Of a DNA stretch of 48,912 bases, positions 7,314 to 45,621 are shown piece by piece. Numbering within the stretch: position 1 is the first letter of the stretch; the number at the start of each line of letters is the position of its first letter. The stretch covers positions 1 through 48,912 of the forward strand of contig JANJVS010000041.1 in NCBI GenBank assembly GCA_024709955.1. Direction: 5' to 3'. Below the pieces are notes generated by a model. That model was not told where the DNA came from. It made no database searches and saw only the letters and a program-made list of their open reading frames with translations. This DNA comes from Rhodocyclaceae bacterium. Lineage in GTDB: Bacteria > Pseudomonadota > Gammaproteobacteria > Burkholderiales > Rhodocyclaceae. Both the position numbers and the translations under genes were made by a program.

Positions 7314-7341
7314 AAAACTCGGCGCCGGCGGAACGGTGGCC
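7314..7341 (+). repeat. 26-bp dispersed repeat, copy 1 (intergenic, upstream of cbbR)
   Basis: AAAACTCGGCGCCGGCGGAACGGTGGCC. Confidence 0.8.
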
Positions 7342-7361
7342 GTCAGAGGGAGCATATCGCC

Positions 7362-8291
7362 ATGAAGCATGTCACCTTGCGCCAGCTCAAGGTCTTCGAG
7401 TCGGTGGCGCGCCATTTGTCGTTTTCGCGCGCCGCCGAGGAACTGCACCTGACCCAGCCGGCCGTGTCGATGCAGGTCAAGCAGTTGGAGGAGCAGGCGG
7501 GACTGCCGCTCACCGAGATGGTCGGCAAGAAGGTCTATCTGACCGCGGCCGGCGAGGAGGTGGCGCGCCACGCCCGGCGCATCGCCCAGCAGCTGCGCGA
7601 AACGGAGGAGGCGCTCGACGCCATCAAGGGCGTGCGCGGCGGCCGGCTGTCGATCGGCGTCATCAGCACCGCCAAGTATTTCGCGCCGCGCCTGCTGGCG
7701 GAGTTCCGCCGTCGCCATCCGGGCATCGAGCTCAACCTGCGCGTGCATAACCGCGAAACCGTCGTGCGCCAGCTCGCCGACAACGAGATCGACCTCGCCA
7801 TCATGGGCCAGCCGCCGCAGGAGTTCGCCACCGTCGCCGAAGCCTTCGCCGATCATCCGCTGGTGATCGTCGCCGCCCCGGACCATCCGCTCGCCGCGCG
7901 CAAGCAGATCGCGCCCGCCCTGCTCGGCGAGGAGACCTTCCTGATCCGCGAACCCGGCTCGGGCACGCGCGCGACCATGGAACGTTATTTTTCGGACGTC
8001 GGCCTGGCGCCGCCGCACATCCTCGAAATGGTCGGCAACGAGACCATCAAGCAGGCGGTGATGGCCGGGCTCGGCCTGGCCTTCATCTCGGCCCATACCG
8101 TCTCGCTCGAATGCGAGGTCGGCCGGCTGGTGCGGCTGCCGGTGACCGGCACGCCGGTGATCCGCCGCTGGTTTGTCGTGCATCGCGCCGAAAAGGAACT
8201 GCTGCCGGTGGCGGACACCTTCCGCAGCTTCCTGCTCGCCGAGGCGCCAGGTCTGATGGCCGACCGCGCCCCGGCGCGGGCCGGCGGCTGA
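7362..8291 (+). CDS. cbbR: LysR-type transcriptional regulator CbbR
   Basis: MKHVTLRQLKVFESVARHLSFSRAAEELHLTQPAVSMQVKQLEEQAGLPLTEMVGKKVYLTAAGEEV; LysR HTH beside the RuBisCO genes. Confidence 0.92.
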   Translation: MKHVTLRQLKVFESVARHLSFSRAAEELHLTQPAVSMQVKQLEEQAGLPLTEMVGKKVYLTAAGEEVARHARRIAQQLRETEEALDAIKGVRGGRLSIGVISTAKYFAPRLLAEFRRRHPGIELNLRVHNRETVVRQLADNEIDLAIMGQPPQEFATVAEAFADHPLVIVAAPDHPLAARKQIAPALLGEETFLIREPGSGTRATMERYFSDVGLAPPHILEMVGNETIKQAVMAGLGLAFISAHTVSLECEVGRLVRLPVTGTPVIRRWFVVHRAEKELLPVADTFRSFLLAEAPGLMADRAPARAGG

Positions 8292-8310
8292 GCCGTGCGT
8301 CCGGGGCGGC

Positions 8311-10020
8311 TCAGGCCGAGCCGCTCTCGGCCCGGTACCACCAGCTCGCCGCGGCGTAGCGCTTCTCTTCCTCCGTCGCCGGCGTCGGCGCGGCGGGTGC
8401 CGTTGCTTCCCTGACGTCCAGCGCGGCCTTGTTCTCGATCGCGTGCAGCAGCTTGACGATCAGGTCGGAAATCGGCCCGATCTGGGCGTAGCAGAGCTCG
8501 GCCTCGCTGGAGCGGCCGTTCTCCTTGTGGCTGACCAGGGAGGCGATCAGCTCGTGGAGCATCCGGTGCGGCCGTTCCAGCTCGTGCATCTCGGGAATGT
8601 GCCCGTAGAGACGCAGGCCCTCGCCGTGATACCAGCGGCCCAGGTCGCACTCGCGGTGGCTGATCAGCTGCTCGCGCGGCAAGGCGTCCTTGCCGTCGAG
8701 ATAGTCGCGCACGTGGCGTTTCCAGGCCGTGTGCGCGGCGCGCGCGCCGGAAAGGTCCAGCTCGGTCAGGCCCTCCATGAAGGACTGGTAATCGTGCAGG
8801 GCCACCCGCTGCGCGCTGACGCGCGCGCGGTCCAGGTCGGCGTAATTGGCTTCGAGCACATTGACCACCTTGCGGTCCAGCTCGAAATTGGCGACCATTT
8901 TTTTCAGGATGTCGAGCACGGACTCCCGGTCGAGCCCCCGGCGGTAGGGGCGATCCTCGGTGAGCGCGGTGAAGATGTCGGCGACGGCGAGGATGCGCGC
9001 CTCCAGCGGAATGCGCGGATTGTCGGCGCCGAAGGGATAGCCGGTGCCGCACAGGCGCTCATGGTGCACGCCGCACCAGAGGGCGATGTCTTCCATGCCG
9101 TTGATCGAGGCGAGGATGCGGTAGGTGTAGTAGGGATGGCTGCGCACCGTCATCCATTCCTCTTCGGTCAGGCGGCCATTCTTTTCGAGATGCTCGGCGG
9201 GGATCGCCAGCTTGCCGAGGTCGTGCAGGTAGCCGGCGATCTGGATGCGCTTGCAGTCCGCCTCGGGGAAGCCGAACAATTGGGCCAGCGTGGCGGCGGT
9301 GGCGGCGACGCCGCTCGAATGCGTGGCGGTGAAGCGGCTGCGGAAATCGATGATCTGCGCCAGCAGCTCGGCGAAATCCAGTAGGGCGTCCTCGTCGAGT
9401 TCGACCGTGGAAAACGAGATGCGCGTGGCCATCAGGTTCAGCAGGTCGGAGGCGTTGAGGTCGAGCCAGAAGGCGTCCTTCGCGGAAACGGCGAGGAAGT
9501 TATCGATGAGTTCGGGCATCAGCACCTCGCCGCGCAGCGCGCCAATCCGCGCGTTGATGTCGCTCGCCTGCCAGAGGATCGGCCGTTCGCGATCGACCAG
9601 GCCATTCACGCGGTTGGCGAGATGCACGATGTGGCTGCCGACCGGCACCATTTCCCCCTCCACTTCGCGATGCTGTCCGTGCGCCCAGTCGATGCAATGG
9701 AAGCGCACGATGCGCGCCGACATTTCGAAGGGCTTGAACTTGCGCAGCAGCTGATAGCCGAAGCGCGCGCTGTGGAGGCTGGCGGAGCCCGCGCCGCCGC
9801 CGGCGCCATCCTGGCGCGGCAGGGTGCCGATGTCGTGGAGGGCGGCGGCGATCACCACGTCCTCCTTGGCCTTGCCGCTCAGCCCGGCCGCCTCGGCCAC
9901 GCGCAGCGCGATGTAGGCGACGCGCTTGTGGTGGTCGGCCATCGCCGGATTGATCAGGTCGAGCGCCTGCGACAGGGAAAAGACGAACTGATTGAGGCTG
10001 ACGTTGAGTTCATGCTTCAT
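8311..10020 (-). CDS. HD-GYP domain protein with a first HD-like domain and CZB-like C-terminal region
   Basis: LHDLGKLAIPAEHLEKNGRLTEEEW...HHERLCGTGYPFG (HD-GYP signature) and C-terminal HTAWKRHVRDYLDGKDALPREQLISHRECDLGRWYHGEG... resembling the chemoreceptor zinc-binding fold. Confidence 0.85.
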   Translation of the reverse strand: MKHELNVSLNQFVFSLSQALDLINPAMADHHKRVAYIALRVAEAAGLSGKAKEDVVIAAALHDIGTLPRQDGAGGGAGSASLHSARFGYQLLRKFKPFEMSARIVRFHCIDWAHGQHREVEGEMVPVGSHIVHLANRVNGLVDRERPILWQASDINARIGALRGEVLMPELIDNFLAVSAKDAFWLDLNASDLLNLMATRISFSTVELDEDALLDFAELLAQIIDFRSRFTATHSSGVAATAATLAQLFGFPEADCKRIQIAGYLHDLGKLAIPAEHLEKNGRLTEEEWMTVRSHPYYTYRILASINGMEDIALWCGVHHERLCGTGYPFGADNPRIPLEARILAVADIFTALTEDRPYRRGLDRESVLDILKKMVANFELDRKVVNVLEANYADLDRARVSAQRVALHDYQSFMEGLTELDLSGARAAHTAWKRHVRDYLDGKDALPREQLISHRECDLGRWYHGEGLRLYGHIPEMHELERPHRMLHELIASLVSHKENGRSSEAELCYAQIGPISDLIVKLLHAIENKAALDVREATAPAAPTPATEEEKRYAAASWWYRAESGSA

Positions 10021-10199
10021 GGCGGAATTCCCGGAGTCATGCGACGCGCGGACGCATCATGCCGGCCGGATGGGCGAATGCCAATGCGATGGACCGGCCG
10101 GTGCGGGATGATTCCCCAAACCGGCGGGCCCGTCAATCCCGCGTAGGTGGTAGCCGGATGGGTAATTCTCCCTATCCGCACGGCGCCACGCCGGCCGGG

Positions 10200-10228
10200 A
10201 AAAGTCGGCGCTCGCGAGACGGTGGCCA
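10200..10228 (+). repeat. 26-bp dispersed repeat, copy 2 (intergenic, degenerate)
   Basis: AAAAGTCGGCGCTCGCGAGACGGTGGCC. Confidence 0.7.
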
Positions 10229-10242
10229 GCCGGCGCCGGCTT

Positions 10243-10740
10243 TCAGGGCGTCGTTTTCCCGGGGATCTTCCAAAGGGTCGCGGTGATCCCGAGCGGGGTG
10301 ACGAAGGCCTTGACGTAACGGTTGCCCAGGGTCAGCCGCTTGCCGCCCTCGGGCAGCGCGGACATGACGATCTCGGTGAGCTCGCCGTCGCTGAGCTGGG
10401 TTTCCCCCTCGGCGTGCCACATCTGGATGTGGCCGCAGGCGTCGCGGTCCACCAGCAGGGCCTTGTCGCTCTTGGCCTCGGGCAGGCGGATCAGCACGCC
10501 GGCCGGCAGCTCGTAGCCGCGCGCCGGGCCGTGCGCGGTCATGACCTCCTCGCCGCCCCCGGGACGGGCGCTCGCCATCACCTCCAGCGCCTCGTCGTCC
10601 GAGATGCGGCTCTTGCCCTCGGTGTGCCAGACGATGAAGCCCTGCGGCCCGGTCTGGATCAGCAGGACGTTGTCCTCGGCGTGGAGGGTGCCGGCGCACA
10701 GGCAGGCGGCGACCGCGGCAAAACGCCGCAGCGCCTTCAT
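10243..10740 (-). CDS. Secreted/periplasmic hypothetical protein with internal duplication
   Basis: MKALRRFAAVAACLCAGTLHAEDN signal peptide; repeated unit GFIVWHTEGKSRISDDEALEVMASARPGGG / GHIQMWHAEGETQLSDGELTEIVMSALPEGG. Confidence 0.75.
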   Translation of the reverse strand: MKALRRFAAVAACLCAGTLHAEDNVLLIQTGPQGFIVWHTEGKSRISDDEALEVMASARPGGGEEVMTAHGPARGYELPAGVLIRLPEAKSDKALLVDRDACGHIQMWHAEGETQLSDGELTEIVMSALPEGGKRLTLGNRYVKAFVTPLGITATLWKIPGKTTP

Positions 10741-11294
10741 TCGCCTTTCCATTTGATCGAGCAGCCGATGCCGGGAATCTGCTCGCGCGGTCCCTGGCCG
10801 GTGAGGGCGACCTGCCGCATCGCCTCGAACAGGTCGCGGCGCGCGTCGGACGGCGCCGCTTCCTTGCGCGAGGCGTCGAGGCGGCCGCGGTATTGCAGCT
10901 CCAGCTTGGCGTTGAAGCCGAAGAAGTCGGGGGTGCAGACGGCGCCGTAGGCTCGGGCGACGGCCTGGGTTTCGTCCAGCACGTAGGGAAACGGGAAGTC
11001 GTGGGCGCGCGCGACCTGGACCATGTTGTCCCAGGAGTCCTCGGGATATTCGCTGGGGTCGTTGCTCATGATGGCGATGCTGCCGATGCCGAGCGTCGCC
11101 AGTTCGCGCGCATCGCGCACGATGCGGTCGATCACCGCCTTGACGTAGGGGCAGTGGTTGCAGATGAACATCAGCAGCAGGCCGTTGGGGCCGCGCGCCG
11201 ACGCCAGGCCGTGGCGTCGGCCGTCGACGCCGGGCAGGTCGAAATCCGCGGCCTGCCAGCCGAAATCGCAAACGGGAGTGGGGGTGCTGACCAT
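10737..11294 (-). CDS. Thioredoxin-like / AhpC-TSA family protein
   Basis: MVSTPTPVCDFGWQAADFDLPGVDGRRHGL...LLLMFICNHCPYVKAVIDRIVRDARELA; ATGA overlap with the downstream gene. Confidence 0.88.
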   Translation of the reverse strand: MVSTPTPVCDFGWQAADFDLPGVDGRRHGLASARGPNGLLLMFICNHCPYVKAVIDRIVRDARELATLGIGSIAIMSNDPSEYPEDSWDNMVQVARAHDFPFPYVLDETQAVARAYGAVCTPDFFGFNAKLELQYRGRLDASRKEAAPSDARRDLFEAMRQVALTGQGPREQIPGIGCSIKWKGE

Positions 11295-11318
11295 GCTGTC
11301 TCCTCCAGATGGTTGTGG

Positions 11319-14300
11319 TTATTGGTGTTCGGTCGGCTTCGATGATAGCGCGTCCGGCACGGGGGGATTTTTACCGGCGGCCTCCAGCGCCAGCTTGAGC
11401 GGCACGCCGGCCTCCGTGCCCGCGAGCGCTTCCGGCGGCAGCAGATGCAGGCGCTCGGCCGCGACGCCGGCCTTGCCGAGCAGCGCGACGGCGTTCTCGC
11501 CGCGCTTCCGCGCGAGTTCCAGCAGGCGGTCGTCGGCGACGCTTTCGGCGGCGCGCAGGCGCTCGTAGAGCTCGGCGTGGAAGTCGGCGCCCTTGAGCCG
11601 GGCGATCTCGTCCTCGCCCAGGGTCTTCTTCTCGCGCAGCAGGCCGGACAGGCGCGACATCATCTTGCCGGTCAGGCTTTCCTCCAGCTGGCCGGGATTG
11701 GCGCGGCGAAAGCCGTCCTTGAGCGCGGCGAGATCGGCGGAGCCGAAGCGGTCGCCGTAGAGCGCTTCGAGGGCGGCCTGTACCTTGGGCTGGCGCGAGG
11801 ACAGCGGGCCGGGGTCGCCCCGTTCCGAGACGCGCTGGCCCATGCGGACGATCACGGCGCGCCGCAGCTGCACATCCTGCAGCGCGACGCGGTCCGCCTC
11901 GGCATGCCTGCCGCCGATGGCGAGCACCAAGCCCGGCCGCTTGGCCAGCGCGTCGGCCAGCCGCGCGAGCTTTTCGCGTTCCGGCGGCGACAGCTGGGCG
12001 GCGCCGGCTTCGAACGCGATGTCCTCGACCTTCTCGCCGCCGCCGAGCAGCGCGCCGAGCGCGCGGAAGGGGGCGGTGACGATCTTGGTCAGCACGTTGG
12101 CGATCGCCTTCCAGACGATCTGGCCGTAGCTGAACTCCGGATCGTCGAGGCTGCCGGCGACCGGCAGTCCGAGGTCGATGCGGCCGTCGGCATCCTGCAG
12201 GATGGCGATGGCGAGGTCGAGGGGCAGCTCCTTGGCACTCGGACTCTCGACGCGTTCGCCGAGAACCAGCCGTTCCATGACCACCTGGTTCTCGCCCTGC
12301 AGCTGGCGCTGCTCGATCTTGTACTGCAGGTCGAGGGAGAGCTTGCCCGAGTCGATCTTGCGGCCGGCGAAGGTGGCGGTGTAGGGCGTCAGCCGCGTCA
12401 TCTCGACGTTGCGGAAGATCACGCGCAGGTCCATGAAGTCCTTCGGATGGAACAGGTCCACCTGGCCGACGGCGCGCGCCATGCCGTATTCATCCACCTC
12501 GCCGTCGAGTTCGAGCTGGCCGGGCGCGCCGGGCTGGCTCGACAGGTTGCCGATGCTGCCGCGCAGCCCGTGGATGCGCGTGCCGAAGGGTAGCAGCAGG
12601 GAGTGGTCGGCGAAATCCAGCTCGCCGTTGTAGAAGCGCAGACGGTCGATGTTGACGACGAAGGGGGGGCTCGCACCCGGCGCGGGAGGCGGCGCCCCGC
12701 CGGCCTCTTCCTCCCGCGGCTTGAGCGCCCGCCTGAAGTTGATGTTCTTGTCCTTGTCGATGATCAGCTGGGTGTCGAGGCCGCTGAGGCGCAGTTCGCC
12801 GAGGTCGAGCCGGCGGGGCGTCAGCGTCAGTTCGGGACTGGCGAGGTTCTTCCAGGCGAGCAGGACGTTGCCGTCGGTCTCGGCGAGGCGCAGCTCGCGC
12901 AGCGCGAAGTCGCCGCGGAAGCTCGGTCCCTGGGCGTCGTAGGCGAGCCGGCCCTGGGTGGAGAGCTTGCCGCCGGCGATGGCGAGCGTGGTCCTGCCGG
13001 CGAGATAGGGCTGGGCGGGGCGCAGCGCCAGGTCGGCCAGCTTGAACCGGAAGTCCAGGGCCGGCCCGGCGGGCACGAGCTTGCCTTCGCCCGTGAAGCG
13101 GCCGCCGCTGCGCACGTCGAAGGCAAGGCGCAGCGGCAGCGCGGCGTTCAGGTCGTCGCTGATGTCCGCGACGCGCAGAGAGGTGTCGTCTAGCGCCAGT
13201 TCCGCGGCTGGCGTTACGCCGGCGTCGCGCAGGACGAGGCCCAGCCCGGTGGCGGTGAACTCGGCGAGCCTGAAGCGCCAGGGCGTGGCGGCGGGCTGGC
13301 CCGGCTCGGCCGGCTGCGCGGTCGGCGCAAGCGGCCGCAGGGCCGCGAGCAGGTCGATATCGCCCCGGGCATCCCGCGTCGCCGCGACACTGCCGCCGTC
13401 GAGCTTGACGCGGCCGAGGGTCGCCTCGCGCTGGCCCAGGTCGATGCGCGCGTCCTCCAGGCTCAGGGCGCCGAAGCGCGGCGCGGCCGGGTCTGGGGCG
13501 GGAAATTCCAGCTTGCCGGCGGCGAGCCTCAGGGTGCCGAAGCCGGCTTCCCGCCGCGCCAGGTCGAAGCGGCCATCCCGCAGTTCGACGGTGTCGACCG
13601 CCGCGACGGGTCCAGGCTCCTGGCCGAGAGGCAGCCGCAGGCCAGCGACCTTGGCCGTCAGCCCCGTGATGACCAGGTCGAGCTTGTCGCCGCCGTTGCC
13701 GGCCCGGTAGCTGGCCGCCAGGGCGGCCTTGCCGGCGGGCGGCGCCGGCAGCAGGTTCCTGAGATAGGGGGCGAGCTGGGCGATGTCGAAATCGTCGAGG
13801 CGGAAGTCGCCGGCGACCGCCACCGGGTTGAGGGCGATCTCTCCTCCCAGGGCGAGACGGGCGCCGGCGGCGGTGCGCGCCTCCAGTCGGTAGCGGCCCT
13901 TGTCGTCGGGTAGCGTGGAAATCTCGTCGAGGGTGAGGTCGAGCGGCTCGACGCGGGTGGCGAAGCCGGGTTTGGCGCGACGGTCGGCGAAGTCCAGCCG
14001 GCCGCCGGCCAGCACGAAGCCGCGGATGTCGAGGCGCGGTGGCGCGGCGGACGGCTGTTCTTCCTTGTCCCGCAGCGCATCGAGGAAGGGAGTCCAGTTG
14101 AGCTTGTCGCCCGGCAGCTCGACCAGCGTCACCGCGAGGCCGTCGAGTCGGATCGCGTCGAATGTCAAGGTCCGGCGCGGCAGGCTGGCGGCGGAGACAT
14201 CCACCAGCAGCCCGTCGAAGGCGAGCAGGGGTTCGCCCGCCGGGTCGTCGAGTTCCAGCCTGCCGATGCGCAAGGCCAGCGTGAAGGGATTGAATTCGGG

Positions 14301-14474: not shown

Positions 14475-14524
14475 CGCGCGCCTCTGGCCGGAGCGGCCGG
14501 GATGGGTTGTGAAATAATACAAAA

Positions 14525-15253
14525 ATGATACCCCGCTTCCATTGCCCCTTTCCCCTCGCCCCCGGCGCCCAGGTGGATCTGCCCGAAGCGGCGGCGCATC
14601 ATGCCATGCGCGTCCTGCGCCTCAAGGTCGGGGCGAATCTGATTCTCTTCGATGGCTGCGGCGGCGAGTGGCTGGCGCAAATAGTCGGCGCTGGCGGGAC
14701 GGTGCGCGTCGCGTTGCGGGAGTTCGCCGACCGCGAGGCCGAATCCCCGCTCGCCGTCACGCTGGTGCAGGCCCTGCCGGCCGGCGACAAGATGGACTGG
14801 GTGGTCGAGAAATCCGTCGAGCTCGGCGTCGCGGCGATCCAGCCGGTGGCGGCGAGGCGCTGCGTGGTCAAGCTGACCGCCGAGCGCATGGCGCGCCGCG
14901 TCGCGCACTGGAACCACATCGCCAGCGCGGCCTGCGAGCAGTGTGGCCGCAATCGCGTGCCGCGGGTTGCTCCCGTGCTTGATCTGCCTCAATACCTCGC
15001 CGAGGCAAGGGGGCAGAATGCCTTGTGTTTGCTACTGGCGCCGGAAGCCGGTGTTTCGCTGCGCGAGTTGGCGCGTCCGGCGGGACCGGCGACCGTCATG
15101 GTCGGCCCCGAGGGCGGCTGGGATGAAGGCGAGATGCGGGCCGCCGAGGCGGCGGGTTTCCGGACCCTGCGGCTGGGACCGCGCGTGCTGCGCACCGAGA
15201 CGGCCGGAGCGGCGGTCCTGGCGGCGCTGCAGGCGGCATGGGGTGATTTCTAG
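14525..15253 (+). CDS. rsmE: 16S rRNA m3U1498 methyltransferase RsmE
   Basis: MIPRFHCPFPLAPGAQVDLPEAAAHHAMRVLRLKVGANLILFDGCGGEW...; TVMVGPEGGWDEGEM motif. Confidence 0.93.
   Translation: MIPRFHCPFPLAPGAQVDLPEAAAHHAMRVLRLKVGANLILFDGCGGEWLAQIVGAGGTVRVALREFADREAESPLAVTLVQALPAGDKMDWVVEKSVELGVAAIQPVAARRCVVKLTAERMARRVAHWNHIASAACEQCGRNRVPRVAPVLDLPQYLAEARGQNALCLLLAPEAGVSLRELARPAGPATVMVGPEGGWDEGEMRAAEAAGFRTLRLGPRVLRTETAGAAVLAALQAAWGDF
14681..14707 (+). repeat. 26-bp dispersed repeat, copy 3 (inside rsmE; encodes VGAGGTV)
   Basis: ATAGTCGGCGCTGGCGGGACGGTGCGC; protein ...AQIVGAGGTVRVAL... Confidence 0.75.
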
Positions 15254-22773: not shown

Positions 22774-23418
22774 ATGTCCAGTCCCGCCGAGCTGTCCTGT
22801 GCCAGTGATTGTCGCGTGCGCCTCGTGCAGGCGGCGACGGAGGCCTTCATCGCCGAGGGCTATCACGCCAGCGTCGATCGCATTGCCGCGCGCGCCGGCG
22901 TGGCGAAGCAGACGCTCTACAACCATTTCCCGCGCAAGGCCGACCTGTTCGCCGAGGTGATCGGCCAGGCCACGGTCGAGCTGCTGGTCGCCCTGGGCGA
23001 CGATGGCGAGGACCTGCGCGAGCGTCTGACCCGCTTCGGCGTGCGCTACCGCGAAAAGCTGCTCGGTACCGCCGGCCTGGGTCTTTATCGCACCCTGGTT
23101 GCCGAAACGCCGCGCTTTCCCGAACTTGCCGCCGCCTTCTACCGCGCCGGCCCCGAACAGACCGCGAGGCGCCTGCGCGCCGTTCTGGAAGATGCGATGC
23201 GGCGCGGCGAGTTGCGCGCCGACGATCCGGGCTTCGCCACCACCCTGCTGTTGTCCATGCTGGTCGGCGTCGAACGCAGCTGCCAGCTGTTCGCCGTCGA
23301 TTCCTCGCCCGAGCCCGATCCGGCGCTGGCCGGCCGGATCGTCGATTGTTTCCTGCGCGCCTTCGCCCCCGAAGCGCCGCATACCCCACCCACCGCCGCC
23401 AGACGGAGCGCACGATGA
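22774..23418 (+). CDS. TetR/AcrR family repressor of the RND efflux operon
   Basis: RLVQAATEAFIAEGYHASVDRIAARAGVAKQTLYNHFPRKADLFAEVI HTH; directly upstream of the efflux genes. Confidence 0.92.
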   Translation: MSSPAELSCASDCRVRLVQAATEAFIAEGYHASVDRIAARAGVAKQTLYNHFPRKADLFAEVIGQATVELLVALGDDGEDLRERLTRFGVRYREKLLGTAGLGLYRTLVAETPRFPELAAAFYRAGPEQTARRLRAVLEDAMRRGELRADDPGFATTLLLSMLVGVERSCQLFAVDSSPEPDPALAGRIVDCFLRAFAPEAPHTPPTAARRSAR

Positions 23419-24566
23419 AAAACAGACTCGCCCAGGCCCTGCCGATTCTTCTGTTGTCCCTTCTCGCCGCCTGCGGTGGCGACCAGAAAGGCGCCGCCGG
23501 CGGCGCTCCCGGCGCGGCACCGCCGCCCGAGGTGGATGTGATCACGGTCGCGGCGAGCAGCACGACCATCACCCAGGACCTGCCGGGCCGCCTGCAGGCG
23601 GTGCGTTCCGCCCAGGTGCGGGCGCGCGTCGAGGGCGTGCTGGAAAAGCGTCTGTTCGTCGAGGGCAGCGATATCGCCGCCGGCACGCCGTTGTTCCAGA
23701 TCGACCCACGCACCTACCAGGCCGCCGCCGCCGCCGCCGAGGCCGATGTGGCCGCGGCCAGGGCCGTGTTCGAGCGCTACCGGCCGCTGCTCGACATCAA
23801 GGCGGTGAGCCAGCAGGAATTCGACGCGGCGGCGGCCAAGCTCAAGCAGGCCGAGGCGGCGCTCGCCAGCGCCCGGCTCAACCTCGAAAACGCCGTCCCG
23901 CCAGCGCCGATTTCCGGCCGCATCGGCCGCGCGCTGGTCACCGAGGGTGCCCTGGTCGGCAAGGGTGAGGCTACCCATCTGGCGACCATCGAACAGCTCG
24001 ATCCGATCCGTGTCGAGTTCACCCAGTCCTATTCCGACATGCTGCGCCTGCAGCAGGCGGTGAAGGCCGGCAAGCAGAAGCGCGCGGATGCCGCCGAGGT
24101 CGAACTGGTGCTGGAAGACGGCTCGCTCTACGCCGAGAAAGGCAAGCTGCAATTTGCCGATCTCGCGGTCGATCCGAACAGCGGCGCGGTGATCCTGCGC
24201 GCCGAGTTTCCGAATCCGCGGCGGGAACTGCTGCCCGGCACCTTCGTGCGTGTGCGCTTCCCGCAGGCGCAGCTCGACGACGCGATTCGCGTGCCGCAGC
24301 GCGCGGTGCTCGGCGGCGCTGCGGGGCAGAGCGTGATGACGGTGGATGCCGAAAACAAGGTGGTGCCGCGGTCGATCAGGACCGGCGCGATGGCGGGCGG
24401 CGACTTCATCGTCACCGACGGCCTCAAGGGGGGCGAACAGGTGATCGTCAATGGCCTGCAGAAGGTCAAGCCGGGCGCAACCGTGAAGCCCGTGCCCTGG
24501 ACGCCGGGAGCGCCGCTGCTGGCTGCGCTGCCCACCGCGCCGGCGCAACCTGTCGAGAAGAAGTAA
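23415..24566 (+). CDS. RND efflux periplasmic adaptor (MFP), lipoprotein
   Basis: MKNRLAQALPILLLSLLAACGGD lipobox; VRARVEGVLEKRLFVEGSDIAAGTPLFQIDPRTYQAA; PISGRIGRALVTEGALVGKGEATHLATIEQLDPI. Confidence 0.94.
   Translation: MKNRLAQALPILLLSLLAACGGDQKGAAGGAPGAAPPPEVDVITVAASSTTITQDLPGRLQAVRSAQVRARVEGVLEKRLFVEGSDIAAGTPLFQIDPRTYQAAAAAAEADVAAARAVFERYRPLLDIKAVSQQEFDAAAAKLKQAEAALASARLNLENAVPPAPISGRIGRALVTEGALVGKGEATHLATIEQLDPIRVEFTQSYSDMLRLQQAVKAGKQKRADAAEVELVLEDGSLYAEKGKLQFADLAVDPNSGAVILRAEFPNPRRELLPGTFVRVRFPQAQLDDAIRVPQRAVLGGAAGQSVMTVDAENKVVPRSIRTGAMAGGDFIVTDGLKGGEQVIVNGLQKVKPGATVKPVPWTPGAPLLAALPTAPAQPVEKK
23892..23915 (-). repeat. 26-bp dispersed repeat, copy 4 (inside the MFP gene; encodes AVPPAPIS)
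   Basis: Reverse complement GGAAATCGGCGCTGGCGGGACGGC; weaker than the others. Confidence 0.5.
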
Positions 24567-27500: not shown

Positions 27501-27698
27501 TTCATGTTCGGCGTGCTGCCGCTGGCGGTGTCCACCGGCGCGGGCGCCAACAGCCGCCATGCCATCGGCACCGGCGTGATCGGCGGCATGTTCACCGCCA
27601 CGGTGCTGGCGGTGTTCCTCGTGCCGGTGTTCTTCGTCGTCGTCCGCCGCATCTTCCCCGGCCATGCCCGCCATCATGCGGAGAACCATCATGAATAA
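24570..27698 (+). CDS. RND efflux inner-membrane transporter (HAE1/AcrB type)
   Basis: [62 protein letters not shown]-type start; [18 protein letters not shown]; 1043 codons. Confidence 0.96.
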   Translation: [1042 protein letters not shown]

Positions 27699-29076
27699 GC
27701 TGTTGCCCCTGGCCGTCGCGCTCGCCGCCGCCGGCTGCTCGTTCATTCCCGCATACGAGCGTCCCGCCGCGCCGGTTCCCGCCGACTGGCCGGTCGCCGA
27801 AAAAGTCGGCGCCGGCGGGACGGTGGCCGCCATGGCGGACTGGCGCGCCTTCTTCGCCGATGCGCGCCTGCAGGAAATCATCGCCGCCGCGCTCGAACAC
27901 AACCGCGACCTGCGCATCGCCGTGGCGCGCGTGGACGAGGCGCGGGCGCTCGCCGGCATTGCCCGCGCCGACCGCTACCCCGGCGTGGATCTCGGCCTGC
28001 AGCAGCAGGCCGCGCGCGTGCCCGGCGACTTGAATTCCTCCGGTGAGTCGGCGGTCAGCCGACGTTTCGACGCCAACCTCGGCGTCGCCGCCTTCGAGCT
28101 CGACTTCTGGGGGCGTGTCCGGAGCCTCGACGCGGCGGCGCGGGCGAACTTCCTCGCCAGCGACTACGCGCAACAGTCCTTCCGCCTCGCGCTGATCGCC
28201 GACGTGGCCGCCGCCTATTACAGCCTGCTCGAACTCGACGCGCGCCTGGCGCTCGCCGAGGCGACGGTGCGGAGCCGCTTCGAGAGCCGCCAGCTCGTCG
28301 AGCGCCGCCGCGACGTCGGTCTGGCCGGCGATCTCGACTTCCTGGCCGCCGACGGCGCCTGGCAAGGCGCGCGCGCCGAGGCCGCCAGCCTGGCGCGCCA
28401 GCAAGCCGCCGCCGCGAACGCCCTGCGCCTGCTGGTCGGCGCCGAGCTGCCCGCCGCCACCGTCCCGCCAGCGCCGACTTTTGCGAGCGCGGCCGTTCCC
28501 GCCATCGCCGTGGGTTTGCCCGCCGAAGTCCTGCTGCGCCGTCCCGACGTGTTGGCGGCGGAGCAGAAGCTGATCGTCGCCAACGCCAACATCGGTGCCG
28601 CCCGCGCCGCCTTCCTGCCGAAGATCGTGCTGACGGCTGCGGCGGGCAGCGCCAGCGGCGCCCTGTCCGGCCTGTTCGCGGGCGGCAGCCGCGCCTGGAG
28701 CTTCGTGCCGTTGCTCAAGCTGCCGCTGTTCGACGCGGGGCGCACCGAGGGCAACGTCGACCTCGCCGAGGCGCGCAAGCACATCGCCGTCGCCGACTAC
28801 GAGAAGACGCTCCAGCAGGCCTTCCGCGAGGTCGCCGACCTGTTGTCCGCGCGCGCGCGCTACGCCGAGCAACTGCAGGCCCAGGAAGCGGCGGCCGCGG
28901 CGCAGGACGAGCGGCTCAAGCGCGTGGCGGCGCGTCACGCGGCCGGCGTGTCGAGCTATCTCGAACTGCTCGACGCCCAGCGCGAGCTGTTCGCCGCCCA
29001 GCAGGCGGTGCTGGCGACGCGGCGCGCCCAGGCGACCGTGGCGGCGAGCCTGTTCAAGGCCCTCGGCGGCGCCTGA
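27691..29076 (+). CDS. RND outer-membrane factor lipoprotein (NodT/OprM type)
   Basis: MNKLLPLAVALAAAGCSFIPAYERPAAPVPADW...; VRSLDAAARANFLASDYAQQSFRLALIADVAAAYYSLLELD. Confidence 0.94.
   Translation: MNKLLPLAVALAAAGCSFIPAYERPAAPVPADWPVAEKVGAGGTVAAMADWRAFFADARLQEIIAAALEHNRDLRIAVARVDEARALAGIARADRYPGVDLGLQQQAARVPGDLNSSGESAVSRRFDANLGVAAFELDFWGRVRSLDAAARANFLASDYAQQSFRLALIADVAAAYYSLLELDARLALAEATVRSRFESRQLVERRRDVGLAGDLDFLAADGAWQGARAEAASLARQQAAAANALRLLVGAELPAATVPPAPTFASAAVPAIAVGLPAEVLLRRPDVLAAEQKLIVANANIGAARAAFLPKIVLTAAAGSASGALSGLFAGGSRAWSFVPLLKLPLFDAGRTEGNVDLAEARKHIAVADYEKTLQQAFREVADLLSARARYAEQLQAQEAAAAAQDERLKRVAARHAAGVSSYLELLDAQRELFAAQQAVLATRRAQATVAASLFKALGGA
27801..27828 (+). repeat. 26-bp dispersed repeat, copy 5 (inside the OMF gene; encodes KVGAGGTVA)
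   Basis: AAAAGTCGGCGCCGGCGGGACGGTGGCC. Confidence 0.9.
28456..28482 (-). repeat. 26-bp dispersed repeat, copy 6 (inside the OMF gene, opposite orientation; encodes ATVPPAPTF)
   Basis: Plus strand GCCACCGTCCCGCCAGCGCCGACTTTT. Confidence 0.9.
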
Positions 29077-36059: not shown

Positions 36060-36085
36060 AAAGTCGGTGCCGGCGGGACGGTGGG
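36060..36085 (+). repeat. 26-bp dispersed repeat, copy 7 (intergenic, downstream of purA)
   Basis: AAAGTCGGTGCCGGCGGGACGGTGGG. Confidence 0.85.
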
Positions 36086-37902: not shown

Positions 37903-37918
37903 ATGCCTGAACAGCGGA

Positions 37919-38215
37919 TTACTTCTTCTTGGCGGCCTTCTTGCCGGCGACGGTGGCTTTGAAGGTGGCACCGGCGGTGAACTTCGGCACGGTGGTGGCG
38001 GCGATCTTCAGCGGTTCGCCGGTCTTGGGGTTCTTGCCGGTGCGCGCGGCGCGCTTCGCGGACTTGAAGGTACCGAACCCGACCAGGGTCACGGTATCGC
38101 CCTTGGCGACGGCCTTGACGACTGAGTCGATGATGGCGGACAGGGCACGCTCGGCGGCGGCCTTGGAAATGTCGGCGGCCTTGGCGGTGACTTCGATGAG
38201 TTCGGATTTGTTCAT
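37919..38215 (-). CDS. HU-family DNA-binding protein
   Basis: [89 protein letters not shown]. Confidence 0.95.
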
Positions 38216-38570: not shown

Positions 38571-38587
38571 CTCTGTCGCTCCTGAAA

Positions 38588-38992
38588 TCAGGCCGTGGTG
38601 TTGACCACGGTACCCGTGAGTTGCCCTTGCGTGTTGATCACCGCCGTCGTGCCGGCCTGCTTGTCCGGCACGTCCGTCGTCTGCTGCTTCGCGACCACCT
38701 GATCCGCCTTGCTCGCCAGCATTGCTTGCGTCTGGCCCGCCGACTCGATCATCGCCAACCCCTGCCGTGCCCGCCCCGCGTTGGCCTGCGCCCGATCGGA
38801 CTGCGTCGCCAAGGAGCGTGCATTCTCCTGCGCCCTATCCGCAGTCTGCTGCGCGGCGACCGCCTGCCGTTGCAGGTTGCGCGCGTTCTGCTCCGCCTGC
38901 TGGGCGTTCTGCCTGGCCTGCAGCAATCTCATCTGCTGCAAGCCGTATTCGGCGGCAGATTGTGAACCGGAGGTTGATGAGATAGCAGCCAT
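38588..38992 (-). CDS. Small Gln/Ala-rich coiled-coil-like protein with C-terminal NTTA signature (paralogue B)
   Basis: MAAISSTSGSQSAAEYGLQQMRLLQARQNAQQAEQNARNLQRQAVAAQQTADRAQENARSL...AVINTQGQLTGTVVNTTA. Confidence 0.75.
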   Translation of the reverse strand: MAAISSTSGSQSAAEYGLQQMRLLQARQNAQQAEQNARNLQRQAVAAQQTADRAQENARSLATQSDRAQANAGRARQGLAMIESAGQTQAMLASKADQVVAKQQTTDVPDKQAGTTAVINTQGQLTGTVVNTTA

Positions 38993-39099
38993 CGTCGGAG
39001 TCCGAAGCCGTGACCTTGCAGCCATAATAGTCCCAAAGTCGAATGGGAACAAGGTATTGGCCGGGCCAGCGGTGATATATGCCACGCCGCTTGCCGGCT

Positions 39100-39124
39100 C
39101 ACCGTCCCGCCGGCGCCGACTTTC
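39100..39124 (-). repeat. 26-bp dispersed repeat, copy 8 (intergenic, upstream of the HugZ-like gene)
   Basis: Plus strand CACCGTCCCGCCGGCGCCGACTTTC. Confidence 0.85.
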
Positions 39125-39147
39125 CCGGGGAGCTTTAGAATCCGCGC

Positions 39148-39783
39148 ATGCTTTCCCGTCTCGAAACCCTCATCGACCTGCTTCATGGCGCCGGCGAGGC
39201 GGCCTTGGCGACCCAGTCGCTCGCCGTGCCCGGTTTTCCCTTCGCCAGCGCCGTGCCGTTCGCGCCGGATGAGCGGCATCGGCCGATCCTGCTGATTTCG
39301 CGGCTCGCCGAGCACACGCAGAACCTCGGCGCCGACCCGCGCGCCAGCCTGCTGTTGGCGCGACCGCTGGCGGCCGGCGAAATGGCGCGGGTGACGCTGA
39401 TTGGCACGGTCCAGCCGGTCGAAGCCCGTCCCGAACTGATCGCCCGTTACCTGCGTTACCACCCCGAGGCGGAACGCTTCCTGCAGCTCGGCGATTTCGG
39501 TTTCCACCGCCTGGAGCCGGCGCGCATCCGCGTCATCGGCGGCTTTGCCCAGGCGGGCTGGCTCGATGGAGAACGCCTGCTGGAAGCCGCAGGCCTCGCC
39601 GCCGCCGCCGAGGCCCGGCTGCGGGAAGCGTGCGCATCCCTGTTGCCGCCCGGCGCGGAATGGCTCGGCATCGACGCCTATGGTGCCGACCTGCGCCGCG
39701 GCGGCGTGCGCGAGCGGCTGCGTTTTGCCCACGGGCCGCTCGACGCGGCGGCCATCGGCCGGGAATTAGCGGCCTTGGTCTGA
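39148..39783 (+). CDS. HugZ/pyridoxamine-5'-phosphate-oxidase-like FMN-binding split-barrel protein
   Basis: LLHGAGEAALATQSLAVPGFPFASAVPFAPDERHRPILLISRLAEHTQNLGADPRASLLL plus C-terminal DUF2470-like region. Confidence 0.87.
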   Translation: MLSRLETLIDLLHGAGEAALATQSLAVPGFPFASAVPFAPDERHRPILLISRLAEHTQNLGADPRASLLLARPLAAGEMARVTLIGTVQPVEARPELIARYLRYHPEAERFLQLGDFGFHRLEPARIRVIGGFAQAGWLDGERLLEAAGLAAAAEARLREACASLLPPGAEWLGIDAYGADLRRGGVRERLRFAHGPLDAAAIGRELAALV

Positions 39784-41406: not shown

Positions 41407-41408
41407 GC

Positions 41409-41726
41409 CTAGCGCGGCGGCGCGTCCTCGGGCAGCCTGACCTGCAGGCTCTCCCGATGGGTTTCGACCACCACCGCTTCGCCCTCGATCACGGCGCCAT
41501 CCGGCGTTCCGGACGGCATTGCGCGCATCTCGCGCCGCAGCTTGCGCGTCTTCCACCAGAAGTAGCCGAACAGCGCGGCGCCGACGACGAGGGCGACCGC
41601 CAGCACCACCAGCGAGAACATGAAGGCAGCGATCAGCAGCACGGCGCCCGCCGCATAGACGAAGATTTTTTTCAGCAGGCCGGGTTGCTGGCCGTCCTGC
41701 CCGGGAAAGGGGGGATGACTTCTCAT
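41409..41726 (-). CDS. Small membrane protein, hypothetical
   Basis: IFVYAAGAVLLIAAFMFSLVVLAVALVVGAALFGYFWWKTRKLRREM: one or two TM helices. Confidence 0.75.
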   Translation of the reverse strand: MRSHPPFPGQDGQQPGLLKKIFVYAAGAVLLIAAFMFSLVVLAVALVVGAALFGYFWWKTRKLRREMRAMPSGTPDGAVIEGEAVVVETHRESLQVRLPEDAPPR

Positions 41727-41822
41727 GGATTTCCTGAATGGGATGCGGACGGCGGGCTGCCGCCGTCCCAGCCCGCATCCTGCCCGAGTTTGGCGCATCA
41801 GGCAAAGCGCGGGGCGATCGCC

Positions 41823-42068
41823 TCAGGCCAGGACGAGGCGGAAGCCGGGCGGCGTGCGCAGGGTCTCCTCGGTCTCGACGATGAACAGGCGGCCGAGCAG
41901 GGCGTCGATCTTGGTCGGCATGAGCGGCGGCAGGACGTGGCTCGCTTCCAGCACGAGTTCCTCGCCCGACTTCAGGGCCGCCGCCAGCGGTCCGTAGCGG
42001 AAGCCCTCGGCGCTATCCTGGCCGATCAGGTCGTGCAGGGTGGTATCCGGCGTGCAAAGGTATTTCAT
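41823..42068 (-). CDS. Hypothetical protein (81 aa)
   Basis: MKYLCTPDTTLHDLIGQDSAEGFRYGPLAAALKSGEELVLEASHVLPPLMPTKIDALLGRLFIVE. Confidence 0.65.
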   Translation of the reverse strand: MKYLCTPDTTLHDLIGQDSAEGFRYGPLAAALKSGEELVLEASHVLPPLMPTKIDALLGRLFIVETEETLRTPPGFRLVLA

Positions 42069-42175
42069 CGCAGGCTCCTTGCCAAGGCGACGGAGGTCGC
42101 GGAATTGTCAAGCATCCGTCGTGCCCGAAAAGCGCCGGGATAAAATGGAAAACATTCCAACTTCGTCGATTCGCC

Positions 42176-42391
42176 ATGGCGGCACCGTTTTCCGGCCGGC
42201 CGAAGTGCATGCGCTGCGTGCATTTCTTCATCACCTACGATCCGTTCTTCCCCAACGGCTGCCGCGCCATGAACTTCAAGAGCCGCGGCCTGCCGCAGGA
42301 CGAGGTGCGTTCCGCATCCGGCAGTGGCTGCCTTTCCTTCCTGGAACGCCTGCTTCCCTCCGCCGGCAGGGCGGATGCCGGCGAGGGCTGA
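42176..42391 (+). CDS. Small cysteine-containing protein (CxxC...C...C)
   Basis: KCMRCVHFFITYDPFFPNGCRAMNFKSRGLPQDEVRSASGSGCLSFLERL; just upstream of dusC. Confidence 0.75.
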   Translation: MAAPFSGRPKCMRCVHFFITYDPFFPNGCRAMNFKSRGLPQDEVRSASGSGCLSFLERLLPSAGRADAGEG

Positions 42392-42397
42392 TGCGCG

Positions 42398-43366
42398 ATG
42401 TCCCGCCTCGCGCTCGCCCCGATGGAGGGCCTCGCCGACGACGTGCTGCGCGACGTATTGACGCGGGCGGGCGCTTACGACTGGTGCGTCACCGAGTTCG
42501 TGCGGGTGAGCGCGACGGTGCTGCCGCGCTCCAGTTTCATGCGCATCTGCCCCGAGCTGGGGAACGCCTCGCGTACGCGCGCCGGCACCCCCGTGCGCAT
42601 CCAGCTGCTCGGCTCCGATCCGGACCTGCTTGCGGCCAATGCCGCCGGCCTGGCGCGGCTGGCGCCGGCGGGCATCGACCTCAATTTCGGTTGTCCCGTG
42701 CCCCTGGTCAATCGCAACCGGGGGGGCGCGGCCCTGCTCGACGATCCGGAGCTGCTGCGGCGCATCGCCGAGACGGTGCGCCAGTCCGTACCCGCCGAGA
42801 TTCCCGTTACCGCCAAGATGCGTCTGGGCATCGAGGATGCCGCCCGGGCGCTCGATTGCGCCCGGGCATTGGAGGCCGGCGGCGTGCAGGAACTCGTCGT
42901 CCACGCGCGCACGCGGGACGACGGCTATCGCCCGCCGGCGCGCTGGGATTGCGTGGCGCCGCTGCGGGAGGCCCTGCGTATCCCGGTGATCGCCAACGGC
43001 GAGGTGTGGACCGTCGCCGACTGGCGCGCGATCCGTGCCGCAACCGGCTGTGCCGACGTGATGCTCGGCCGCGGCGCCGTGGCCGATCCGCTGCTGTCGC
43101 GGCGCATCCGCGCCGGCGAGGAGGGGACCGAAACCGAAGCGGACTGGGAAATCGTCGCCGGCCTGATCGCCGATTTCTGGGCCCAGGTGCGGCGCAAGGT
43201 GCTGCCGGGGCAGGCGCCGGGGCGTCTCAAGCAATGGCTGGTGCTGATGCGCCGCATCTATCCGCAGGCCGAGACGCTGTTCCGCGCCCTGCGCGAGCTG
43301 CGCAGGGCGAATGCCGTCGATGACGTCCTGCGGCAGAAACTGCCGCGCTCCGCCTTTCAAACGTGA
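42398..43366 (+). CDS. dusC: tRNA-dihydrouridine(16) synthase
   Basis: MSRLALAPMEGLADDVLRDVLTRAGAYDWCVTEFVRV...GIDLNFGCPVPLVNRNRGGAALL; DusC-type. Confidence 0.93.
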   Translation: MSRLALAPMEGLADDVLRDVLTRAGAYDWCVTEFVRVSATVLPRSSFMRICPELGNASRTRAGTPVRIQLLGSDPDLLAANAAGLARLAPAGIDLNFGCPVPLVNRNRGGAALLDDPELLRRIAETVRQSVPAEIPVTAKMRLGIEDAARALDCARALEAGGVQELVVHARTRDDGYRPPARWDCVAPLREALRIPVIANGEVWTVADWRAIRAATGCADVMLGRGAVADPLLSRRIRAGEEGTETEADWEIVAGLIADFWAQVRRKVLPGQAPGRLKQWLVLMRRIYPQAETLFRALRELRRANAVDDVLRQKLPRSAFQT

Positions 43367-43382
43367 CGCGAGGAGTCCGGGG

Positions 43383-43850
43383 ATGATCGAGCCCGCCACC
43401 GACAACGACTTTCAGAGCGCCCATGCGCTGCTGCTGATCGACAGCTTCCGCCGTCTCACCGGCCGCGAACTGCTGGCTGCGGCCGATACTCCGACGGAAG
43501 CGGCGCACCGGCTCTATCACGCGCCCTTTGTCGTGCTGTCCCACGATGCGGCACCGGACCCCGTGTTCACCTACGCGAATCTGACCGCCCAAAGACTCTT
43601 CGAGCTGCCCTGGGCGCGCATCGTCGGCATGGCCTCGCGCTATTCGGCCGAGCCGCTGGCTCGCGCGGAGCGGCAGCGGCTACTGGAGCGCGTCGCCAGC
43701 CACGGCTACATCGACGACTACAGCGGCGTCCGAGTGTCCAGCACGGGGAAGCGTTTCCTGGTGCGGGACGCGACGGTCTGGAACCTGGTGGATGCCCGGG
43801 GAAACAGCGCGGGGCAGGCGGCGAGTTTCGCCGACTGGACGGTGGTGTAG
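43383..43850 (+). CDS. MEKHLA-domain protein
   Basis: PFVVLSHDAAPDPVFTYANLTAQRLFELPWARIVGMASRYSAEPLARAERQRLLERVASHGYIDDYSGVRVSSTGKRF. Confidence 0.87.
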   Translation: MIEPATDNDFQSAHALLLIDSFRRLTGRELLAAADTPTEAAHRLYHAPFVVLSHDAAPDPVFTYANLTAQRLFELPWARIVGMASRYSAEPLARAERQRLLERVASHGYIDDYSGVRVSSTGKRFLVRDATVWNLVDARGNSAGQAASFADWTVV

Positions 43851-43869
43851 CGAAGCTAAGAGTTTGTGA

Positions 43870-43992
43870 TCAGCGCGCGGCGCGGGCGCGCATGGCATCG
43901 TACTGCTTCTTGAGCAGCGGCACCAGCAGCAGCGATCCGCCCGGAACGATCAGGGCGGCGAGAACGAGGAGGGTGTTGCGCGCGTGTTTCAT
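43870..43992 (-). CDS. 40-aa putative membrane protein (below the ORF-track length cut-off)
   Basis: MKHARNTLLVLAALIVPGGSLLLVPLLKKQYDAMRARAAR, single TM then basic tail, between two annotated genes. Confidence 0.6.
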   Translation of the reverse strand: MKHARNTLLVLAALIVPGGSLLLVPLLKKQYDAMRARAAR

Positions 43993-44090
43993 GGAACGAA
44001 TATTCGCATCGGGCGGGCCGCGCGCACGTGACAGGAATCACATCGAAACGCCGAAAAGCCGCGCGGGGCGCTGGATTCAGCGATGCGGCA

Positions 44091-44837
44091 TCAAGGCGGG
44101 TCCGGCGAAAGTTTTTTGCGCAGCAGACACTGCAGGCGCGCGCGGTCGTCCGCGTCGAGTTCGCCGCGGCTGTCGTCTCCGGAAAAGTGGCGGCGGAAGG
44201 CCAGTGTCGCCATGAGCGGATCGCGCGTGTCGTAGCCGAGGGCCGCCAGGCCGAGCAGGGCATCGAAGCCGGGCGCGGCCGGCGTGGCTTCCTCCAACTC
44301 GCACCAGAGGCCGAAGCCCAGGCCGGCGAGCGCCTGCCAGGGGAAGTGGCGGCTCGGGTCGGCCTTGCGTCGCGGCGCGACGTCGGCGTGGCCGATGAAG
44401 TTCGCCGCGGGAATCTTGTAGCGCGCCTTGAGGTCCGCCAGCAGCGGCAGCAGGACGGCGATCTGGGCGTCGGCGAAGGCTTCCGTGCCATCGTTGTCGA
44501 GCTCGATGCCGATGGAGGCGGAGTTGAGGTCGGTCAGGCCGCCCCACCAGGAGGCGCCCGCATGCCAGGCGCGCGCGTCCTCGGCCACCAGTTGCAGAAC
44601 GCGGCCGTCGCGGCCGATCAGGTAATGGGTGCTGACCGACTTGAGCGGGTTGGTCAGGGTGCGCAGCGCCGTGGCCGCATCGCCGTTGCTGGTCTGGTGC
44701 AGCACGACGTAGTTCGGTCGGCGCGCGTTGAAGTTGGGCGAGGGCACCCAGTCGTAGGCGCCCGTCGGTCCGCCGGGCAGCGTGCCGCAGCCGGCGACGA
44801 GGCCGACGAGCGCCAGGAGCGGGAACAGGTGCCGCAT
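44091..44837 (-). CDS. N-acetylmuramoyl-L-alanine amidase (AmpD-like) lipoprotein
   Basis: MRHLFPLLALVGLVAGCGTLP lipobox; YVVLHQTSNGDAATALRTLTNPLKSVSTHYLIGRDGRVLQLVAEDARAWHAG; FIGHADVAPRRKADPSRHFPW. Confidence 0.93.
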   Translation of the reverse strand: MRHLFPLLALVGLVAGCGTLPGGPTGAYDWVPSPNFNARRPNYVVLHQTSNGDAATALRTLTNPLKSVSTHYLIGRDGRVLQLVAEDARAWHAGASWWGGLTDLNSASIGIELDNDGTEAFADAQIAVLLPLLADLKARYKIPAANFIGHADVAPRRKADPSRHFPWQALAGLGFGLWCELEEATPAAPGFDALLGLAALGYDTRDPLMATLAFRRHFSGDDSRGELDADDRARLQCLLRKKLSPDPP

Positions 44838-44841
44838 GGGC

Positions 44842-45621
44842 TCAGAAAGTTCCGGGATAGGCGCCGCCGTCGAGCAGCCAGTTCTGGCCGGTGATGTAGC
44901 CGGCCTGCGCGCCGCAGAGGAAGGCGCAGGCGGCGCCGAACTCGGCCGGGTCGCCGATGCGACCGGCCGGGATGGTCGCCACGCGCGCCGCGAGCGCCGC
45001 CTCGTAGGCGATATCCTGGGCCTTGGCCTGGGCGCCGACCACCCCGCGGATGCGGTCGGTGTCGAACAGGCCGGGCAGCAGGTTGTTGATCGTCACGTTG
45101 TGCCCGACGGTCTTGCGCGCCAGGCCGGCGACGAAGCCCGTCAGCCCCGAGCGCGCGCCGTTCGAGAGGCCGAGCACGTCGATGGGCGCCTTCACCGCGC
45201 CCGAGGTGATGTTCACGATGCGGCCGAACCTGCGCTCGATCATGCCGTCCACCGTCGCCTTGATGAGTTCGATGGGCGTCAGCATGTTGGCGTCGAGCGC
45301 CTTGAGCCAGTCCTCGCGCGTCCAGTCGCGGAAGTCGCCGGGGGGAGGGCCGCCGGCGTTGTTGACGAGGATGTCGGGCCGCGGGCAGGCGGCGAGCGCC
45401 GCGGCGCGGCCTTCCGGCGTCGTGATGTCGGCCGCCACGGCCACCGTCCCGCCAGCGCCGAGTTTTTCGATTTCCGCGGCGGTCGCCTCCAGCGCCTCGC
45501 GGCCGCGCGCGACGATGGTGACGTGGACGCCTTCCTGCGCCAGCGCCAGCGCGCAGGCCCGGCCCAGCCCCTTGCTCGCGGCGCAGACCAGCGCGCGTTT
45601 TCCCGAGATGCCCAGATCCAT
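44842..45621 (-). CDS. Short-chain dehydrogenase/reductase
   Basis: MDLGISGKRALVCAASKGLGRACALALAQEGVHVTIVARG...ILVNNAGGPPPGDF; C-terminal ITGQNWLLDGGAYPGTF. Confidence 0.93.
   Translation of the reverse strand: MDLGISGKRALVCAASKGLGRACALALAQEGVHVTIVARGREALEATAAEIEKLGAGGTVAVAADITTPEGRAAALAACPRPDILVNNAGGPPPGDFRDWTREDWLKALDANMLTPIELIKATVDGMIERRFGRIVNITSGAVKAPIDVLGLSNGARSGLTGFVAGLARKTVGHNVTINNLLPGLFDTDRIRGVVGAQAKAQDIAYEAALAARVATIPAGRIGDPAEFGAACAFLCGAQAGYITGQNWLLDGGAYPGTF
45440..45466 (-). repeat. 26-bp dispersed repeat, copy 9 (inside the SDR gene; encodes KLGAGGTVA)
   Basis: Plus strand GCCACCGTCCCGCCAGCGCCGAGTTTT. Confidence 0.85.

Follow-up and report, generated by a model that had tools for sequence, protein, structure and literature searches.

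Nine copies of a 24-bp word in one contig

The window, i.e. the whole stretch of DNA that was analysed (48,912 nucleotides of contig JANJVS010000041.1), carries nine copies of a short word, distributed between intergenic DNA and the genes of an RsmE-like rRNA methyltransferase, an HlyD/AcrA-type membrane-fusion protein, an outer-membrane efflux protein and a short-chain dehydrogenase (Table 1). A previous reading of this DNA, made from the sequence only, had reported nine copies on both strands; all nine are present, within 1–4 bp of where it had placed them. Eight of them match the 27-mer with at most 3 mismatches, and 100 dinucleotide shuffles of the window gave 0. Copy 4 differs from the 27-mer at 6 positions and from the 24-mer at only 3. 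Note that the window also contains, at 37919-38215 on the minus strand, a small gene of ~300 bp (98 aa, HU-like by eye), several DNA-similar paralogues of which are found in each genome of the window's genus.

Table 1. Copies of the word in the window, and arrays, composites and a separate repeat family located elsewhere
Feature	Location	Strand	Context
Copy 1, AAACTCGGCGCCGGCGGAACGGTG	7315..7338	+	Intergenic, 24 bp ahead of a LysR-family regulator; divergent gap with a HAD hydrolase
Copy 2, AAAGTCGGCGCTCGCGAGACGGTG	10201..10224	+	Intergenic, directly past the stop of gene 10243-10740(-)
Copy 3, ATAGTCGGCGCTGGCGGGACGGTG	14681..14704	+	Within RsmE-like rRNA methyltransferase gene (14525-15253); frame IVGAGGTV, near the end of the PUA domain
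Copy 4, GAAATCGGCGCTGGCGGGACGGCG	23891..23914	-	Within HlyD/AcrA-type membrane-fusion gene (23415-24566), antisense; frame AVPPAPIS
Copy 5, exact consensus	27802..27825	+	Within outer-membrane efflux protein gene (27691-29076); frame KVGAGGTVA
Copy 6, exact consensus	28458..28481	-	Within the same efflux gene as copy 5 (27691-29076), antisense; frame TVPPAPTF
Copy 7, AAAGTCGGTGCCGGCGGGACGGTG	36060..36083	+	Intergenic, 29 bp past the adenylosuccinate synthetase stop
Copy 8, exact consensus	39100..39123	-	Intergenic, ahead of a CREG/PNPOx-like gene
Copy 9, AAACTCGGCGCTGGCGGGACGGTG	45442..45465	-	Within short-chain dehydrogenase gene (44842-45621); frame KLGAGGTVA
54-bp tandem array (example)	L213:13188-13366		G017
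Composites (and others)	L191:326-446, L192:13725-13854, L195:10465-10586, L201:153-275		G000
Separate REP-like family, GAAGTTTCGGCGTAGGCTAACnTCGGCGCAGCCGAnGTTAAGCGAAGCGGCCGAAGCCAACACC, attC-like GTTAAGC ends	L211:19832 region, L213:9723 region, L220:539		G017

Unit and abundance in the host genome

The host assembly, a Rhodocyclaceae MAG of 3.51 Mb in 237 contigs that contains the window (hereafter G000), holds 333 copies of the 27-mer (163 forward, 170 reverse) and 652 copies of the 24-mer with at most 3 mismatches, the latter equally shared between the strands. The reversed controls gave 0 in both cases, so that the genome-wide count is far above the composition expectation. In a logo built from 447 kb of G000, the information is confined to 25 columns with abrupt borders, which defines a unit of 24–25 bp, (r)AAAGTCGGCGCyGGCGggACGGTG. 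Outside these columns there is almost no information, which bears out the claim that the flanks of the copies are unrelated; the consensus of ~26–27 bp put forward earlier did capture a genuine repeat, but its final GCC lies in this uninformative part, outside the unit. The mismatch histogram over the same 447 kb is bimodal, with 94 copies having at most 3 mismatches and 8 having 4–5. The word carries ~36 bits of information in the window's genus, whereas 13.4 bits suffice to specify 652 sites; this excess favours a copying drive over ordinary site selection.

Placement of the copies

Genes and reading frames were taken from a simple purpose-made caller, and the placement counts below are approximate. 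In G000, 45 of the 95 sampled copies are intergenic, although intergenic DNA makes up only ~9% of the sequence. Half to three quarters of the copies lie inside coding sequences. The coding copies use two main frames, KVGAGGTV for those in sense orientation and TVPPAPTF for those in antisense (pooled p=2e-17 and 2e-15, respectively), both of which are flexible-linker-like. Intergenic copies avoid divergent gaps (9 observed in four genomes versus 26.8 expected) and favour convergent ones (28 versus 17 expected), while in tandem gaps they are found at a median distance of 20–55 bp past the upstream stop. Altogether, the copies occupy permissive places, namely linker frames, the DNA that follows stops and the space between convergent genes, and only rarely divergent promoters.

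The copies are more evenly spaced than random ones in three of four stretches (coefficient of variation 0.62–0.69 versus 0.91–0.96); the fourth, from G002, has a value of 0.83, which borders on the random range. The strand-bias check suggested by the sequence-only reading gave counts of 40/38 and 35/34 over 400 kb in two genomes, i.e. no bias, and this balance excludes a Chi- or KOPS-like polarity; polarity words of the Chi, KOPS or AIMS kind were rejected on this ground. The density is 0.086 per kb in DNA that is not shared with the sister species versus 0.170 in shared DNA (63 copies in total). Of 2.9 million viral contigs, only 49 have the word.

Conservation as DNA and origin by substitution

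The conservation of the word was assessed on 400 kb of colinear DNA from each of two complete genomes, G017 and G002. Of 68 alignable copies in G017, 62 occupy the same position in G002. At ungapped coding sites, the third-codon divergence between the two genomes is 0.085 within the word, as against 0.281 over the 30 bp next to it and 0.235 at a greater distance (word versus adjacent DNA, p=6e-11), and the reciprocal comparison gives 0.077, 0.307 and 0.244 (p=6e-10). Regardless of the residues encoded, the word is thus maintained at the DNA level amid faster-evolving surroundings, a pattern that has been reported for both DUS and USS (PMC2397512). Conservation is therefore not restricted to the protein level, and these synonymous sites, together with the intergenic copies, confirm the earlier statement that convergent protein motifs do not explain the repeat; a convergent protein motif was rejected for the same reasons.

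The same reading had called for a comparison of occupied and empty sites in a close relative. G005, a species of the window's genus that is devoid of the word, provides it: at orthologous coding sites, the alignments are mostly ungapped or net-zero, with no 24-bp gap, some linker sites being too divergent for judgement. For instance, the membrane-fusion protein reads LENTRVPAPIAGR in G005 and LENAVPPAPISGR in the window. It follows that the word mostly arises in place. At one site, its orientation is opposite in two species, which suggests that it originated more than once in one tolerant spot. The suggestion of a protein-invading mini-repeat analogous to Rickettsia palindromic elements (RPE) is not supported by these comparisons, as most sites lack the 24-bp gap and the third codon positions are conserved, unlike those of a decaying insert; an in-frame insertion of the RPE type was accordingly rejected.

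Hairpin arrays and composites

That no long inverted repeat is attached to the copies holds true in the window but not everywhere: some copies elsewhere in G000 belong to copy-hairpin-copy composites of ~100 bp, and a sister subclade has hairpin arrays with a period of 54 bp. These arrays are in-frame tandems (18 codons per repeat) of the unit AAAGTCGGCGCTGGCGG-AAATGAAGACG-TCCCGCCGGGCGCCGACT-CATCTCGG, with one hairpin per unit and a single word at the end. G017 and G002 each have about 60 second-arm copies, and the number of units varies between orthologous sites (0 versus 2, 0 versus 3). The arrays occur only in one subclade (G002, G004, G006 and G017), whereas the single word is genus-wide, and this genus-wide count led us to reject them as the source element. 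The composites, to which a minority of the G000 copies belong, consist of two words in direct orientation, 96–105 bp apart, that bracket ~75 bp of DNA containing a bulged hairpin, GGCTAACCGGC..GCCGGTTAAGCG.

Arrays and composites are secondary elements built on the word. They also mean that some copies move or expand via another process, which counts against the uptake reading developed below. A RAYT (PF01797), the REP-associated transposase that the sequence-only reading proposed to look for, was not found in G000, in G002 or G017 (both 100% complete) or in most members of the genus. REP elements of a RAYT were rejected, since no RAYT was found in key carriers, the single word is not an inverted repeat and it often lies in coding sequences. 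A separate REP-like family in G017 (Table 1) is unlinked to the word at the sites listed.

Distribution and dialects

A contig scan with a 22-letter core matched almost only Rhodocyclaceae MAGs, including Sulfuritalea and Sulfurisoma. Within the window's genus, 18 of 19 species have the word, with 95–652 copies each, and G005 has 0. The word or its bipartite form, AAAGTC-N12-ACGG, greatly exceeds the reversed control in genera g1, g2, g9, g11, g47, g62, g69, g70 and g88 and weakly exceeds it in g90, while the remaining Rhodocyclaceae genera are at background level. The search was extended to the order's other families (300 genomes in total) and to 229 genomes drawn from the class, essentially none of which carries the word. 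The word is thus restricted to one family, in which about nine genera carry it. Species without the word nevertheless exist inside carrying genera (G005, G195, G278 and G124) and offer natural contrasts for a receptor search.

The final two letters are characteristic of the species, being TG in G000 and CA, CG or CC in others; at the site equivalent to copy 9, for example, both G017 and G002 have the CA dialect. Genus g11 (G028) uses AAAGTCAGTC-cc-nn-C-rrs-ACGGCG, of which 200 kb contain 46 copies, versus 0 for the reversed control; in this dialect, the end boxes and their exact 12-bp spacing (AAAGTC-N12-ACGGCG) are strictly kept and the middle is variable. The dialect of genus g69 is AAAGTCGACGCTGGCGG. 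Note that three genomes, G386 (from another family of the order), G097 and G123, have a few near-exact copies that are clustered on single contigs, the system being absent; those of G386 are a mix of two genus dialects. These stray copies look like transferred DNA or MAG contamination.

Transformation genes

The check for competence genes prompted by the sequence-only reading had a mixed outcome. The host does have comEC, as do nearly all relatives, and a minor-pilin operon at L186:10237-17851, which adjoins ispH and encodes a PilE/ComP-like pilin (PF16732), FimT, PilV, PilW and PilY1. However, G005 and most other genera, whose genomes are free of the word, have comEC and minor pilins just as well, and so these genes do not discriminate carriers from non-carriers. 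ComP_DUS (PF16732) was rejected as a marker of the system because a PilE-like minor pilin matches it in nearly every genome; ComEC and GspH/FimT, likewise non-discriminating, were also rejected. As far as checked, the species without the word lack no competence gene among ComP_DUS, ComEC and GspH/FimT. Beyond the minor-pilin operon, G000 has a second pilin with a stronger ComP_DUS match, at L299 (G000:C197:11632-11895), and a second pilin of this kind also occurs in a few relatives (G008, G010 and G011).

Interpretation and alternatives

On the number of copies, the conservation of the word in permissive places, its depletion in acquired DNA, its preference for gene ends, its dialects and the presence of comEC and of the minor-pilin operon, we base the following proposal: the word would be a genome-wide self-recognition signal that acts like a DNA uptake sequence and whose end boxes are read by a minor pilin. 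We assign this reading a probability of roughly 0.64. Among the hypotheses raised earlier, that of an uptake-signal-like sequence provides the best explanation and is supported on every testable pattern. Several points weigh against it: the transformation genes do not separate carriers from non-carriers, the word is longer than the known uptake words and holds far more information than its number of sites demands, the arrays and composites betray a second process, and the depletion in unshared DNA is based on 63 copies. More specifically, AAAGTC and ACGGYR, exactly 12 bp apart, would be bound at the cell surface by a receptor belonging to the natural-transformation machinery, with a type IV minor pilin as the likeliest candidate; DNA bearing the word would be preferentially taken up and then recombined into the chromosome; and the resulting uptake bias would multiply the word at tolerant sites where near matches arise and hold it against mutation. 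Two elements of this scheme are inferred, namely the identity of the binding protein as an uptake receptor and the role of uptake or recombination as what drives the process. The broader view that the Rhodocyclaceae have a third, independently evolved family of uptake signals, with a 24-bp bipartite word, genus dialects, recognition by a minor pilin and selectivity for the DNA of their own kind, has in our opinion slightly better than even odds.

The site of a chromosome-scale protein, which the sequence-only reading also considered, is kept as a rival, though an unlikely one. The word would then be a chromosome-wide site for a cytoplasmic DNA-binding protein (nucleoid, repair, recombination hotspot) unrelated to uptake, with the end boxes as contacts and selection keeping hundreds of sites. 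Such a protein would account for a bipartite site with a fixed spacing and a relaxed middle and for a constraint at the DNA level on both strands, and dialects could track changes in the protein, even though they also count among the arguments against it, along with the sporadic losses: the word is wholly absent from single species, e.g. G005 and G195. Moreover, the word is asymmetric and yet displays no strand bias over 400 kb, unlike Chi or KOPS; it is not palindromic, unlike matS, parS and Noc sites; its ~36 bits far exceed the 13.4 needed; half of its copies are coding; and divergent promoter gaps are avoided. The concerted dialects across conserved sites and the fact that the word arises in place without insertion would also be expected of a selfish word that owes its spread solely to biased gene conversion or recombination (e.g. 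a recombination initiation site), with no surface receptor. We regard this as improbable, since it requires a hypothetical targeting enzyme and since the family-wide persistence of the word and its strict two-box spacing better fit a binding requirement.

A mobile mini-repeat, REP/BIME or RPE-like, inserted into genes and intergenic DNA would explain why the 54-bp hairpin arrays vary in copy number between orthologous sites and why G000 has copy-hairpin-copy composites. It is nonetheless highly improbable given that the arrays are limited to one subclade when the single word is genus-wide, that RAYT (PF01797) was not found in G000, G002 or G017, and that most coding sites show no 24-bp insertion and hold copies that are conserved, not decaying. 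As for chance or convergence on the protein motif KVGAGGTV in a genome rich in GC, the preference of the sense copies for one reading frame is what one would predict, but 0 copies are expected, both strands are used, 45 of 95 host copies fall in the 9% of the DNA that is intergenic and synonymous positions are conserved, which leaves this explanation with next to no credibility.

If the uptake reading is confirmed, the Rhodocyclaceae would be the third bacterial family to tag its own genome with uptake-like words, and an environmental family rather than a host-bound one, with many genomes, dialects and natural absences. It would provide an independent replicate for asking why uptake words evolve (species barrier, repair, selfish drive) and contrasting receptors for locating specificity; it would also imply that environmental Betaproteobacteria are selective for the DNA of their own kind, and adding the word may render water and soil bacteria that are hard to engineer transformable. 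Our literature search returned no paper on the word or on uptake words in Rhodocyclaceae, and a 2025 paper names only the Neisseriaceae and Pasteurellaceae as having such words.

Comparison with known systems

Two of the known systems that resemble the word are mobile or invasive elements. REP/BIME sequences, which are mobilised by a RAYT, have a counterpart in the 54-bp arrays of one subclade, which are REP/BIME-like hairpins built from the word; the word differs from them in that no RAYT was found in key carriers, the single word is not palindromic, half of the copies are within genes and there is no insertion footprint. RPE likewise reside inside open reading frames at tolerated positions, whereas the word mostly entails no net insertion, is also intergenic, is conserved rather than degenerate as DNA and is not palindromic.

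The uptake words of Neisseria and Haemophilus, DUS and USS, share many copies, conservation in the permissive shared genome, dialects, a preference for gene ends and depletion in acquired DNA (PMC2397512, PMC3630211). Like the Neisseriaceae DUS, whose receptor is ComP, the Rhodocyclaceae word is present in hundreds of copies, both coding and intergenic, has dialects, is associated with gene ends and is rare in acquired DNA. It differs from DUS in being a 24-bp bipartite word, AAAGTC-N12-ACGGYR, without the CTG core; a few changes would not turn its consensus, or the reverse complement, into any DUS dialect (GCCGTCTGAA dialect, CTG core). Its density of ~120–190 copies per Mb is below that of DUS in Neisseria, and its copies are mostly single rather than arranged in inverted terminator pairs. 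Its uptake role and its receptor, unlike those of DUS, are putative. With the Pasteurellaceae USS (AAGTGCGGT, with extended flanks), it has in common an extended, asymmetric and modular organisation, its occurrence on both strands and the use of permissive coding frames. However, the USS core is absent, the left box AAAGTC being only superficially like AAAGTGCGG, and neither USS type (AAGTGCGGT or ACAAGCGGT, GCGG core) is identical to any 9-mer of the consensus; the host belongs to a different class of Proteobacteria (in the older scheme), and nearly all 24 positions are fixed in the window's genus. With its 24 bp, the word exceeds the known uptake words in length. In conclusion, an uptake-like system of this sort is a known kind of phenomenon, but its word belongs to neither the DUS nor the USS sequence family.
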